DNA from: an archaeon
GTDB taxonomy: Archaea > Thermoplasmatota > Thermoplasmata > Methanomassiliicoccales > Methanomethylophilaceae
Direction: 5' to 3'
Length of the DNA stretch: 36,916 nucleotides
Assembly: GCA_024399155.1 (NCBI GenBank)
Contig: JAKSHX010000007.1
Span: 1 to 36,916, forward strand
Below are positions 28,463-36,073 of this stretch, one piece after another. The translations under genes were made by a program, and so were the position numbers. Numbering within the stretch: position 1 is the first letter of the stretch; every line of letters begins with the position of its first letter. The notes below the pieces were generated by a model. That model was not told where the DNA came from and did not search any database. It saw nothing but the letters and a program-made list of their open reading frames with translations.

Positions 28463-29707
28463 ATGAATATTGACATCGGGTATGGTAAAAAAGACATCCA
28501 GAAAATTGACATCCCCGATGAGAATCTTATCGGAGTAGTTTATCCGAGAGATGTAGAATGTGAGGTGCCCGATAAGATCATCGACACGTCAATAGAATCA
28601 CCTATAGAGAGTGACTCGTTTGAGCGGTTTCTCGAAGGAGGTAAAGACATAGTATTCATTGTCAATGATGGGACCAGGCCTACACCCACATCAAAGGTTT
28701 TAGATGTGCTTTCCAAAAGGATGGACCTCAAAAAAGCGAGGTATCTGATTGCAACTGGAAATCACAGGAATATGACTCCTGAGGAGTACGATTTTGTATT
28801 TGGGAAGCATTACGTAGAATTAAAGAATAGAATATACTGTCATGATTCTAAACAGTCAGAAGTTATTTTTCTTGGGACATCAAAAAATGGTACGCCTATA
28901 GAGCTTAACAAAATTGCTGTGAACGCTGACAGATTAATTGTCATAACAAGTGTGGAACCCCACTATTTTGCCGGATATACCGGCGGAAGAAAATCATTTC
29001 TTCCCGGGATTGCATCATTTAATGCCATTGAAGCGAATCACAAATTAGCGATGAAACGGGAAGCTCAAGTGCTAGTATTGGAAGGAAATCCCGTTCATGA
29101 GGATATGATGGATGCTCTCGAGCATATTAGTGAAAAAAAAATATTTTCTATTCAAATTGTCATGGACAGGCACCAGAATATCTATAAATGCGCATCAGGA
29201 GACATTAACTCCTGTTTCAAGCAGGCAGTTACGTGGGCAGAGGACGTGTTCTGCGTACCTATCCCTGAAAAGGCTGATATTGTTATATCTGTGGCGCCGT
29301 ATCCAATGGATGTCGATCTTTATCAATCACAGAAAGCCCTCGACAATGGTAAATGGGCTCTGAAAAATGGTGGAAAAATTATTATGGTCTCTAAGTGCAG
29401 GAATGGGATCGGACATACGACATTTCTTCAACAATTGTCATCTTCTAAAAATCCCAAAGCGGTTCTAGAGAATCTCAACAGAGAATATAGACTAGGATAT
29501 CACAAGGCTGCAAAAATGGTAGAAATTGCTGTTTGGGCGGATATTTGGGCGGTGACCAGTCTTGATCCCAAAATTATTAGTTCTGCCAATATGACGCCAT
29601 TTCGGGATGTAAAAACAGCTGTAAAGGAAGCTTTGAAGGAGAATCCAAAGGCAAAATTCATAGTTATAATGGACGGCAGCATTACCGTACCAAAGGTGAA
29701 ACAATGA
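28463..29707 (+). CDS. larA: Nickel-dependent lactate racemase family protein
   Basis: A 414-residue LarA-family protein. LarA interconverts D- and L-lactate with a nickel-pincer nucleotide bound to a lysine. The nickel-site residues of Lactiplantibacillus LarA (H108, H174, K184, H200) have counterparts here at H101 ('ATGNHRN'), H167, K177 ('EPHYFAGYTGGRKSFLPG') and H193 ('EANHKLA') with identical spacing of 66, 10 and 16 residues. The 'NDGTRPTP' motif (D69, R72) is also intact. The family includes racemases and epimerases of other 2-hydroxy acids, so lactate is the default, not proven. AGGT precedes ATG 28463, and a TATA-like GGTTAAATAAAG lies near 28425. Its stop overlaps the HdrD-like gene. 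No larB, larC or larE for cofactor synthesis is in the window. Confidence 0.92.
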   Translation: MNIDIGYGKKDIQKIDIPDENLIGVVYPRDVECEVPDKIIDTSIESPIESDSFERFLEGGKDIVFIVNDGTRPTPTSKVLDVLSKRMDLKKARYLIATGNHRNMTPEEYDFVFGKHYVELKNRIYCHDSKQSEVIFLGTSKNGTPIELNKIAVNADRLIVITSVEPHYFAGYTGGRKSFLPGIASFNAIEANHKLAMKREAQVLVLEGNPVHEDMMDALEHISEKKIFSIQIVMDRHQNIYKCASGDINSCFKQAVTWAEDVFCVPIPEKADIVISVAPYPMDVDLYQSQKALDNGKWALKNGGKIIMVSKCRNGIGHTTFLQQLSSSKNPKAVLENLNREYRLGYHKAAKMVEIAVWADIWAVTSLDPKIISSANMTPFRDVKTAVKEALKENPKAKFIVIMDGSITVPKVKQ

Positions 29708-30801
29708 CATTTGAGACACGTAGGATGGAAGAGATAAAGGATGCAATCAACATTTGCACTATGTGTGGATTTTGTAAAAGTGTATGTCCTTCGTTCAAGG
29801 TAATTGGGTGGGACTCAGCTCTTTCTAGGGGGCGCATAATTCTTTCATACGGTCTTATTAACGGGGAGATTTCTGCGGATGACTCGGTCATAGAGAGCAT
29901 GTACACTTGTACAACATGTGAAGACTGCGTCAGGCGTTGTCCTTCTAAAGTTAAAATTGTAGATATCATCGAGAGTTGTCGTGCAGACTTAGTGAAGAAT
30001 GGACACATTTTAACAAAACACAAGACTATTTGTAAAAATATTCTGGATACCAACAATCCATATGGTGAGAGAAAATCAGTTGTTGATACGTTAAAAATAG
30101 CTCCAAAGGAGGCCGATATTGGCTATTTTGCTGGATGTACCGCAGTATATAAAAACAAAGGCATCTCCCAAGCAGCAATCTCCATTCTAAAAAAACTTGA
30201 TGTAGAGTTCACCATAGTTGACGAGGTATGTTGTGGATCCGTTATGCAAAGAATTGGGTGGCCAATTGAAGACACAAAAAAGTACATACAAAAAAATGTC
30301 AACAATATCAAAAGTATGGGTATCAAAACTTTGTTATTTTCTTGTGCTGGGTGTTATAGAACGTTTAAAAACGAGTATCCTAAATATATAGATGTTCCGT
30401 TCAAGGTCCTTCATATAACGGAATTTCTTGCGAAACAGGATCTAAAATTGAAAAGAATGGACGATACTGTGACGTATCATGATCCGTGTCATCTAGGGAG
30501 ACATACTGGGGTATATGATGCTCCGAGAGATATTATTAAAAAAATCCCAGGTATAAAATTCAGAGAAATGGAGTTTAATAGAGAGTTTAGTCATTGTTGT
30601 GGAGGTGGTGGAGGGATGAGATCTGCGTACCCCAATGAATCCAAAAAAATTGCATGTGCCAGAATAGATGAAGCAACAAAAATAGGTGCTAACACTGTCA
30701 TTACAGCGTGTCCATTTTGTGTGAATAATTTGATGCTCGGTTGTAATGATAAAAATGTTAAGGTTGTTGACCTGACAGAAGTTGTTGATTGTCTCTTATG
30801 A
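29704..30801 (+). CDS. HdrD/GlpC-like iron-sulfur oxidoreductase with two CCG domains
   Basis: A 365-residue protein of the heterodisulfide reductase D / glycolate oxidase iron-sulfur subunit group. Two 4Fe-4S motifs open it ('CTMCGFCKSVCPS' and 'CTTCEDCVRRCPS'). Two cysteine-rich CCG domains follow: 'AGCTAVYKNKG'...'CCGSVMQRIG'...'SCAGCYRTF', and 'PCHLGRHTGV'...'SHCCGGGGGMRS'...'ACPFCVNNL'. No membrane span is present, so it is soluble or docks on a partner. In methanogens such proteins handle the CoM-S-S-CoB heterodisulfide or pair with an FAD-linked hydroxyacid dehydrogenase. Translational coupling to larA favours 2-hydroxyacid oxidation here, but no FAD subunit is adjacent. All cluster cysteines look intact. 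Confidence 0.9.
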   Translation: MTFETRRMEEIKDAINICTMCGFCKSVCPSFKVIGWDSALSRGRIILSYGLINGEISADDSVIESMYTCTTCEDCVRRCPSKVKIVDIIESCRADLVKNGHILTKHKTICKNILDTNNPYGERKSVVDTLKIAPKEADIGYFAGCTAVYKNKGISQAAISILKKLDVEFTIVDEVCCGSVMQRIGWPIEDTKKYIQKNVNNIKSMGIKTLLFSCAGCYRTFKNEYPKYIDVPFKVLHITEFLAKQDLKLKRMDDTVTYHDPCHLGRHTGVYDAPRDIIKKIPGIKFREMEFNREFSHCCGGGGGMRSAYPNESKKIACARIDEATKIGANTVITACPFCVNNLMLGCNDKNVKVVDLTEVVDCLL

Positions 30802-31601
30802 ATCTCAGAAATAATCGGGACCTAATATCCAATAGGCCAGTAATAATGGGTATATTGAACATCACCCCAGACTCTTTCTCTGATGGTGGGTCTTACTTTA
30901 AAGGTGGAGGTGTAGTACACGCTTTACAGATGATAGATGACGGTGCCGATATAATTGATATAGGCGGAGAATCAACTCGTCCAGGTTCCGATCCTGTCTC
31001 TACTGAAGAAGAGATAAGAAGAATAATACCAGTCATAAGAGAACTATCCTCTGTAACAGATGTACCGATAGCAGTCGATACCATGAAGCCTAAAGTTGCT
31101 GAGGTTGCACTGGATGCCGGTGCAGATATTGTCAACGATGTAAACGGGTTAAGATCAAAGGGTATGTTAGATGTTTTATCAACGGGAGTACCGGTTGTCA
31201 TTATGCATATGAATGGAGAGCCAAAGACAATGCAGATTGGGTTGACAGAAGGGCCAATTACGGAATCAATTACCAATTTCCTTAGAGAAAGAATATCAGT
31301 TGCTCAAGACTACGGTATAAAGGATATAATTGTCGATCCAGGAATAGGATTCGGAAAGACTGTAAAACAGAATATAGAGATAATTGACAACATATCGCAG
31401 TTTTCATTAGGGTATCCCGTGTTAGTTGGTTTATCAAGGAAGCAATTTCTATCAAAACTATATCCCGAAACAGATAGAGACGATGCTACAGTGAAAATGT
31501 CGATGCGTGCGATACAGAATGGTGCAGATATCGTGCGCGTGCATAATGTAAAGGCTATTGCAAGCGCTCTTAGAACATCACTATACAAAAACAAGAATTA
31601 A
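30798..31601 (+). CDS. folP: Dihydropteroate synthase
   Basis: A 267-residue TIM-barrel pterin-binding enzyme with every DHPS signature: 'IMGILNITPDSFSDGGSYF', 'DIIDIGGESTRPGSDPVS', 'VDTMKPKVAEVALDAGADIVNDVNG', 'VVIMHMNGEPKTMQ', 'IIVDPGIGFGKTVKQNI', 'LVGLSRKQF' and the closing 'GADIVRVHNVKAI'. It joins a pterin to p-aminobenzoate in folate synthesis. Pterin-binding methyltransferases such as MtrH and AcsE share the barrel but lack several of these motifs. The frame opens at TTG 30789; I prefer ATG 30798, which overlaps the preceding stop as ATGA. It suggests that this archaeon makes a folate-type cofactor. The link to larA and the HdrD-like gene has no obvious biochemical reason. Confidence 0.92.
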   Translation: MNLRNNRDLISNRPVIMGILNITPDSFSDGGSYFKGGGVVHALQMIDDGADIIDIGGESTRPGSDPVSTEEEIRRIIPVIRELSSVTDVPIAVDTMKPKVAEVALDAGADIVNDVNGLRSKGMLDVLSTGVPVVIMHMNGEPKTMQIGLTEGPITESITNFLRERISVAQDYGIKDIIVDPGIGFGKTVKQNIEIIDNISQFSLGYPVLVGLSRKQFLSKLYPETDRDDATVKMSMRAIQNGADIVRVHNVKAIASALRTSLYKNKN

Positions 31602-35059: not shown

Positions 35060-36073
35060 ATGGATTGGAACTTTGCTACTACTCTTGTTGGTTCACAGCC
35101 ATATACTAATTCCGTTGAAGCGGTTGATAAAATTTTAGATGGGAGGATCGCCTGTCCATCGTGGCCTCAATTACCAACTAGAGGATATAAAGAAGATATG
35201 TTTGTTCAGACTGGGGTACATCTTCCCGGGGTGCATCACGACACTGGAAAATTAGTCGTTGATCTCGATAATTACGATCCAACAGAAATAGATACAGCGA
35301 TTCTTGAAGAAGAAATTGATTATTTTGTATACCCATCGGATTTTTATGCCGGATTATTTGAATTTCTTGAAAGGGATACCTCAAAATTTCAGGCAATTAA
35401 AGGACAGATTACGGGGCTAATAAGCGAGGGACTTCAAGTATATGATGCGGCGGGTCATCCTGTCATTTATGACGAATCATACAGAAGAATACTGAAGAAA
35501 ACTATCAACATGAGTGCTAAATGGCAGGCCAAAAGACTTTCTAAAAAAAACTCACACGTCATTATTTTTTTTGATGAGCCATTATTTGCCTTATTGGAAA
35601 CCTCACCCACATCCATTTCTCCTAACGACGTTTTTAATTGGATAAACGAAGTTATAGACGGTGTAGACTGTTACAGGGGAATACATTGTTGTGATAATGC
35701 AAATTGGTCCCTTTTTCTTAAATCAAATATTGACATCCTAAGCATTGACGCTTACTCTTACGCAGACAATCTTCTTATGTTCCCTGACGAACTTACTGAA
35801 TTTTATGGCAAGGGTGGAGTAATCGCCTGGGGTATCGTACCTTCTAACAATAATTTACTGAATACAGAAGATGTCAATTCTCTTATTCAAAAAATGGAGA
35901 AAATCTTTGATAAACTTGAAGAGAAAGGCGTTAATAGACAAAAAGCAGCAACTCAGTCGTTGATCACACCTCAATGCGGGCTCAATAACGTGGGCATAGA
36001 CAATATAGATAAAGTTTTTGACATGCTCGACAAAGTTTCAAAAACATTAAAGGAAGAGTATGACCTGCCGTGA
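35060..36073 (+). CDS. MetE-like (UROD/MetE superfamily) methyltransferase
   Basis: A 337-residue stand-alone barrel related to the C-terminal half of cobalamin-independent methionine synthase. 'TTLVGSQPYTNSVEAVDKIL' and 'PSWPQLPTRGYKEDMFVQ' begin it; the second block is typical of short archaeal and anaerobic UROD/MetE-like proteins. Zinc ligands of MetE have likely counterparts: H209 and C211 in 'GIHCCDNANW' (HxC) and C306 in 'LITPQCGLNN', so a zinc-thiolate methyl transfer is likely. There is no N-terminal folate-binding domain. Probable roles are methionine synthesis from a methyl-corrinoid donor, as for methanogen MesA, or another thiol methylation. It follows a TATA box at leaderless distance and has no Shine-Dalgarno site. 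Neighbours give no further clue. Confidence 0.82.
   Translation: MDWNFATTLVGSQPYTNSVEAVDKILDGRIACPSWPQLPTRGYKEDMFVQTGVHLPGVHHDTGKLVVDLDNYDPTEIDTAILEEEIDYFVYPSDFYAGLFEFLERDTSKFQAIKGQITGLISEGLQVYDAAGHPVIYDESYRRILKKTINMSAKWQAKRLSKKNSHVIIFFDEPLFALLETSPTSISPNDVFNWINEVIDGVDCYRGIHCCDNANWSLFLKSNIDILSIDAYSYADNLLMFPDELTEFYGKGGVIAWGIVPSNNNLLNTEDVNSLIQKMEKIFDKLEEKGVNRQKAATQSLITPQCGLNNVGIDNIDKVFDMLDKVSKTLKEEYDLP

Follow-up and report, generated by a model that had tools for sequence, protein, structure and literature searches.

Order-wide pairing of a malate-racemase-like LarA homolog with a CCG-domain iron–sulfur protein in Methanomassiliicoccales

Among 110 loci drawn from two collections, between which species are partly repeated, the gene for a LarA homolog of the nickel-pincer nucleotide (NPN) superfamily adjoins a gene for an iron–sulfur (FeS) protein in all 109 that are readable across the joint, and all of these belong to Methanomassiliicoccales. 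The two genes form a single continuous reading frame in 11 loci, and the median gap between them is 1 base in the 98 unfused loci. This adjacency is not due to chance. Because the linkage is order-wide and includes fusions, we consider it very probable that LarA and the FeS protein act as one functional unit, in keeping with the initial annotation, which had held that a racemase and an electron-transfer protein belong together here. Residue comparisons suggest malate as the substrate, and a role for the unit in malate dehydrogenation is proposed.

Locus structure and conservation

The window is the whole 36,916-nucleotide stretch analysed (contig JAKSHX010000007.1), which comes from a 1.29 Mb draft genome (G000; 96.6% complete, 176 contigs) and was compared with relatives from the Methanomassiliicoccales. 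The features of the locus are as follows.

28463..29707, + strand: larA homolog, 414 aa; predicted 2-hydroxy-acid racemase of the nickel-pincer nucleotide superfamily, with a malate-racemase-like signature (Y168, Q290, G345-x-H347-K348)
29704..30801, + strand: FeS protein gene, 365 aa; two [4Fe-4S] and two complete CCG motifs; predicted GlcF/TfrB-type electron-transfer subunit, not the HdrD of the order
30798..31601, + strand: folP, dihydropteroate synthase, 267 aa; TIGR01496 above cut-off; operon neighbour, outside the racemase/electron unit
29704..29707, + strand: ATGA stop/start overlap of larA and the FeS gene, read from the sequence
30798..30801, + strand: ATGA stop/start overlap of the FeS gene and folP, read from the sequence

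Both joints agree with the earlier description of larA, the FeS gene and folP as coupled by ATGA overlaps: larA ends in AAA CAA TGA (29707) and the FeS gene begins with ATG ACA (29704), and the FeS gene ends in CTC TTA TGA (30801) and folP begins with ATG AAT (30798), giving a 4-base overlap each time. The TTG at 30789, taken as the folP start in the ORF listing, is less likely than the ATG at 30798, which gives the ATGA joint. Profile searches placed Lar_N and LarA_C domains in LarA and a Fer4 dicluster with two CCG domains in the FeS protein, and FolP scored 292.8 bits against TIGR01496 (cut-off 162.6). As sequence-based predictions, the family assignments are firm for LarA (at superfamily level), the FeS/CCG protein and dihydropteroate synthase. 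Elsewhere in the window (35060-36073), a 337-aa ORF without a Pfam or NCBIfam match bears a by-eye resemblance to MetE/UroD-type methyltransferases.

We found larA in 37 of the 41 genomes searched, and in 30 of the 31 of good quality; one of the four larA-less genomes (G033) was dismissed as a true absence, since its contig stops where larA is expected. With folP lying within 60 bases downstream in 80 of 96 loci, conservation of the trio is order-wide, so the possibility raised at the outset that it is unique to this strain does not hold. A literature search found no paper linking Methanomassiliicoccales with lactate racemase. COG0247 and COG0277 genes have already been recorded in the neighbourhood of several LarA groups (PMC7583248), which, as here, lie near FeS and FAD oxidoreductase genes, hence this kind of neighbourhood is not new in itself. 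The present case differs from those groups in its order-wide fixed pair, its 11 fusions, folP as the third gene and the usual lack of larC in the genome.

Two relatives lack the pair altogether. At the same locus in G002, dap genes and a ThiL-like gene are followed about 150 bases on by folP; larA and the FeS gene are missing from this stretch, which contains no N. G003 also keeps folP without larA and the FeS gene, but its contig ends soon after folP, which makes the evidence for an empty site weaker than in G002. These genomes are sisters, each 79% complete, and the losses, partly limited by completeness, represent at most one independent event.

Cofactor site and cofactor genes

Residues D69, R72, H101, H167, K177, H193 and K291 of the window's LarA correspond to D72, R75, H108, H174, K184, H200 and K298 of the reference LarA (positions as in PMC7583248). 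These seven NPN-binding and catalytic residues (R, K and H; D, H, H and K) are invariant across an alignment of 111 LarA orthologs, which upholds the earlier view that the nickel site is intact, and the GHK motif is kept in 110 of the 111. The cofactor genes are less uniform: larB and larE score above cut-off in 36 of 41 genomes, mostly near each other, and larC in 13 of 41 only, such that larC is missing from most genomes that carry larB and larE though LarA is intact. The larC-poor genomes raise the matter of how nickel is inserted into the cofactor, and a larC-free route would be directly testable.

In the window's own genome, larB (searched by family and by protein), larE (by family) and larC were not found above cut-off. 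Lack of these genes, which the initial annotation had named as counting against its reading, therefore applies to the window's genome and not to the 36 relatives. G008 and G020 carry hisD, ppk, ppx, larE, larB and Nre as a cluster; on contig C101 of the window's genome (L176:10046-10899), hisD is followed by Nre about 850 bases on with no N, an apparent loss of ppk-ppx-larE-larB. An assembly gap was dismissed as the cause at this usual site, since hisD and Nre are contiguous on one contig; in G001 and G011 the contigs end at the larB/larE site, so a gap may explain the absence there. Compared with the G001 proteins, LarA and the FeS protein of the window's genome are more distant from relatives by ~4-12 identity points. 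The two genomes differ by ~1-2 points in fumarase alpha and Nre when the closest references are used and by up to 5 with distant ones, and in fumarase beta the difference varied from 1 to 13 points. The faster divergence of LarA and the FeS protein is a weak hint of relaxed constraint.

In the window's organism, the LarA–FeS unit may thus lack its cofactor and decay, or use salvaged cofactor. The former possibility, with larB, larE and larC lost, faster evolution of LarA and the FeS protein, and a full loss of the type seen in G002 and G003 as the next step, would be compatible with the malate scheme proposed below, and we place it just short of an even chance. It accords with the cofactor genes not found, the shortened hisD–Nre interval, the quicker divergence, and the absence of larA and the FeS gene beside a retained folP in these two genus mates. 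However, the reading frames are open, the ATGA overlaps are intact and all cofactor and catalytic residues are retained; salvage of NPN or a precursor is possible, and the pattern is clear in one genome only.

Probable substrate of LarA

The closest solved structure to the window's LarA is the malate racemase Mar2 (6d6z), and its best family match is the malate racemase LarAH6, at 367.1 bits under a curated cut-off of 500; the lactate racemase model scored lower, at 289 bits. Of the four Mar2 substrate positions, three are shared (Y172, Q293 and K351 corresponding to Y168, Q290 and K348), and K173 is replaced by F169. The lactate-racemase positions F175, F176, V297 and W358 correspond to Y168, F169, Q290 and K348. 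Beyond the Y/Q/K substrate positions, the protein shares with Mar2 and LarAH6 (6d6z, 7s91; NF052593) the GHK motif and every NPN and catalytic residue, and differs in the loop residue (K173 to F169), in its score below the curated cut-off and in being constantly linked or fused to an FeS subunit. We lean towards malate as the substrate, which appears more likely than lactate, and a related 2-hydroxy acid is possible because the LarAH6 score is under the cut-off and one Mar2 substrate residue differs. The earlier proposal that both isomers of a 2-hydroxy acid are used accordingly keeps its racemase–FeS pair, with the residue signature and best matches favouring malate over lactate as the acid concerned.

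The same architecture would be plausible for lactate. In a lactate version of the reading first envisaged, LarA would racemize lactate, and a GlcD-type flavoprotein with the FeS protein would act as a D-lactate dehydrogenase yielding pyruvate and electrons, such that both lactate isomers of the gut are used. D-lactate is among the D-2-hydroxy acids that GlcD-type FAD proteins act on, and no NAD-type lactate dehydrogenase was found in the order either (PF00056 and PF02615 above cut-off in 0 of 41 genomes). The recorded COG0247 and COG0277 neighbours of several LarA groups (PMC7583248) fit this reading too. Nonetheless, the match at three of four substrate positions to malate racemase rather than to F175, F176, V297 and W358, together with 289 bits for the lactate racemase model versus 367 for LarAH6, makes lactate an unlikely substrate. 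Equally improbable, in our estimation, is another anionic 2-hydroxy acid (2-hydroxyglutarate, sulfolactate or tartrate) processed by the same racemase–flavoprotein–FeS logic. Here K348 and Q290 are suggestive of an additional acidic group, yet F169 differs from Mar2 K173; the score under the LarAH6 cut-off and the tartrate side activity of malate racemases (PMC11770544) would also fit, but both the signature and the best matches point to malate racemases. A sulfolactate/CoM route, prompted by the acidic-side-chain signature, was set aside, since CoM synthesis in Methanomassiliicoccales is reported to proceed via cysteate, not sulfolactate (PMC4153887).

Electron transfer, a putative malate route and folP

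The FeS protein carries [4Fe-4S] motifs at C18/21/24/28 and C69/72/75/79 and CCG motifs at C145..C176C177..C214xxC217 and C262..C298C299..C336xxC339, and these 18 Cys (8 in the two [4Fe-4S] motifs, 10 in the two CCG motifs) are invariant in 106 sequences. It matches positions 127-485 of the 488 in the TfrB profile NF004898 with 234 bits (cut-off 385). In common with TfrB of the CoM/CoB thiol:fumarate reductase it has two [4Fe-4S] motifs and CCG domains; unlike TfrB it lacks the N-terminal domain, scores below the cut-off and has a probable flavoprotein partner of GlcD type. The TfrB top match was rejected as proof of thiol chemistry because it is non-discriminating, a GlcD-adjacent FeS protein of the order having the same top match.

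Within the window's family, almost every genome contains exactly two matches to the FeS protein, namely itself and a 36-40% paralog of HdrD type. In small trees with some forks unresolved, the LarA-linked FeS clade joined the GlcD-paired FeS subunits at 100/100, with HdrD apart in its own clade (100/100), and the unpaired GlcD joined the paired GlcD at 100/100, with a 540-aa FAD type apart. By these sequence comparisons the FeS protein is distinct from the HdrD of the order, and the label 'HdrD-like' in the initial annotation is not supported, given a separate HdrD in the order and the grouping of the window's protein with GlcD-paired subunits. An HdrD docking on an Fpo-like complex, which would place the operon in core energy conservation, might be read from the two matches per genome and from the earliest comparative genomic study of the order, which lists two hdrD genes in two of three genomes (PMC4153887), but is highly improbable given the separate clades and the HdrD-type paralog retained even in G002 and G003, where the LarA-linked protein is missing. 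In energy-conservation models, one of the genes counted as 'hdrD' probably encodes a partner of GlcD.

Because the branching is mirrored in the FeS and FAD trees, the unpaired GlcD is a likely partner of the LarA-linked FeS protein. No FeS gene adjoins the unpaired glcD, which in the window's genome is on contig 155, away from the larA–FeS locus and not adjacent to the window's FeS gene; the check for an FAD-linked dehydrogenase suggested earlier thus yielded a flavoprotein of the right type. G002 and G003, which have lost larA and the FeS gene, also have no strong GlcD match and no larB or larE, a joint absence in keeping with the proposed unit. In G001 (84% complete) larA is present and GlcD of the unpaired type was not detected. 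The 540-aa FAD protein was ruled out as the partner, being on a distant branch and also present in G002 and G003. The proposed combination of FAD protein and CCG-containing FeS subunit is that of GlcD-type dehydrogenases (glycolate oxidase GlcDEF and relatives), and the order also contains paralogous two-gene GlcD–FeS pairs (L114, L115, L143), whereas here the FeS gene sits with larA, and glcD alone elsewhere. As separate observations, the unpaired glcD of the one-contig genome G017 (C1:298834-299567) is split over two frames, through a sequencing error or a broken gene, and a doubled FAD-binding protein with two FAD_binding_4 domains (L132:6492-9203 in G006, with similar ~910-aa frames elsewhere) is a single protein of ~540 aa in other genomes.

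NAD(P)-type malate/lactate dehydrogenases of PF00056 and PF02615 were above cut-off in 0 of 41 genomes, with positive control genomes; this result covers these two families, and malic enzyme, other FAD malate dehydrogenases, other malate enzymes and TfrA lie outside it. Class I fumarase occurs in 37 of 41 genomes, with no TCA partner genes found in the fumarase neighbourhoods. The potentials of oxaloacetate/malate (~-170 mV) and CoM-S-S-CoB (~-140 mV) are near enough for reversible exchange. Because the NAD(P)-type families are missing, fumarase is present and the potentials are close, we propose a racemase-assisted malate dehydrogenase. In the presumed direction of flux, class I fumarase would convert fumarate to L-malate, LarA with its nickel-pincer nucleotide would interconvert L- and D-malate by hydride transfer, and the unlinked GlcD-type FAD dehydrogenase would interconvert D-malate and oxaloacetate. 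Electrons would pass from GlcD to the cubane clusters of the FeS protein and on to its two CCG-motif clusters, which would most likely exchange them with CoM-SH + CoB-SH / CoM-S-S-CoB, as in thiol:fumarate reductase; the LarA–FeS–GlcD unit would thereby take the place of the NAD(P)-dependent malate dehydrogenase that is missing.

As a whole, this scheme is at best evenly balanced between right and wrong. G002 keeps fumarase without the unit, and malate would therefore be handled another way there. More tentative still, and on balance doubtful, is the generalization that the order runs its malate/oxaloacetate step without an NAD(P)-type malate dehydrogenase, using a racemase-coupled D-malate dehydrogenase and CoM/CoB thiols, with NPN made mostly without LarC. 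If the proposed scheme is right, it would fill a gap in the central metabolism of Methanomassiliicoccales, which are important gut and rumen methanogens, and place a nickel-pincer racemase in core metabolism.

Retention of folP in G002 and G003, where larA and the FeS gene are lost, shows that folP is separable from the pair, and a functional tie is not supported, consistent with the earlier remark that the folate gene had no obvious tie. That the trio is one pathway, with the racemase and FeS protein serving folate or pterin synthesis, is very unlikely despite the position of folP directly next in most loci, since folP persists in these genomes without the other two genes and no folate step is known to require a 2-hydroxy-acid racemase. 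The accompanying caution that folate synthesis is not expected in all methanogens needs adjusting for this order, where folate use would be expected because an H4F methyl branch has been reported (PMC10804542); folP would be an operon neighbour for H4F synthesis. Downstream of folP, many relatives carry ThiF/E1-like (PF00899) and ubiquitin-conjugating E2-like (PF00179, 3.2e-13) genes and a third small conserved gene (examples at L060:9361-10128, L042:4488-4973 and L165:1106-2598), none of which is at this site in the window. In families outside that of the window, FolP often has ~110 additional residues at its N-terminus (L089:8349-9503, L104:8330-9373, L137:9050-10219).
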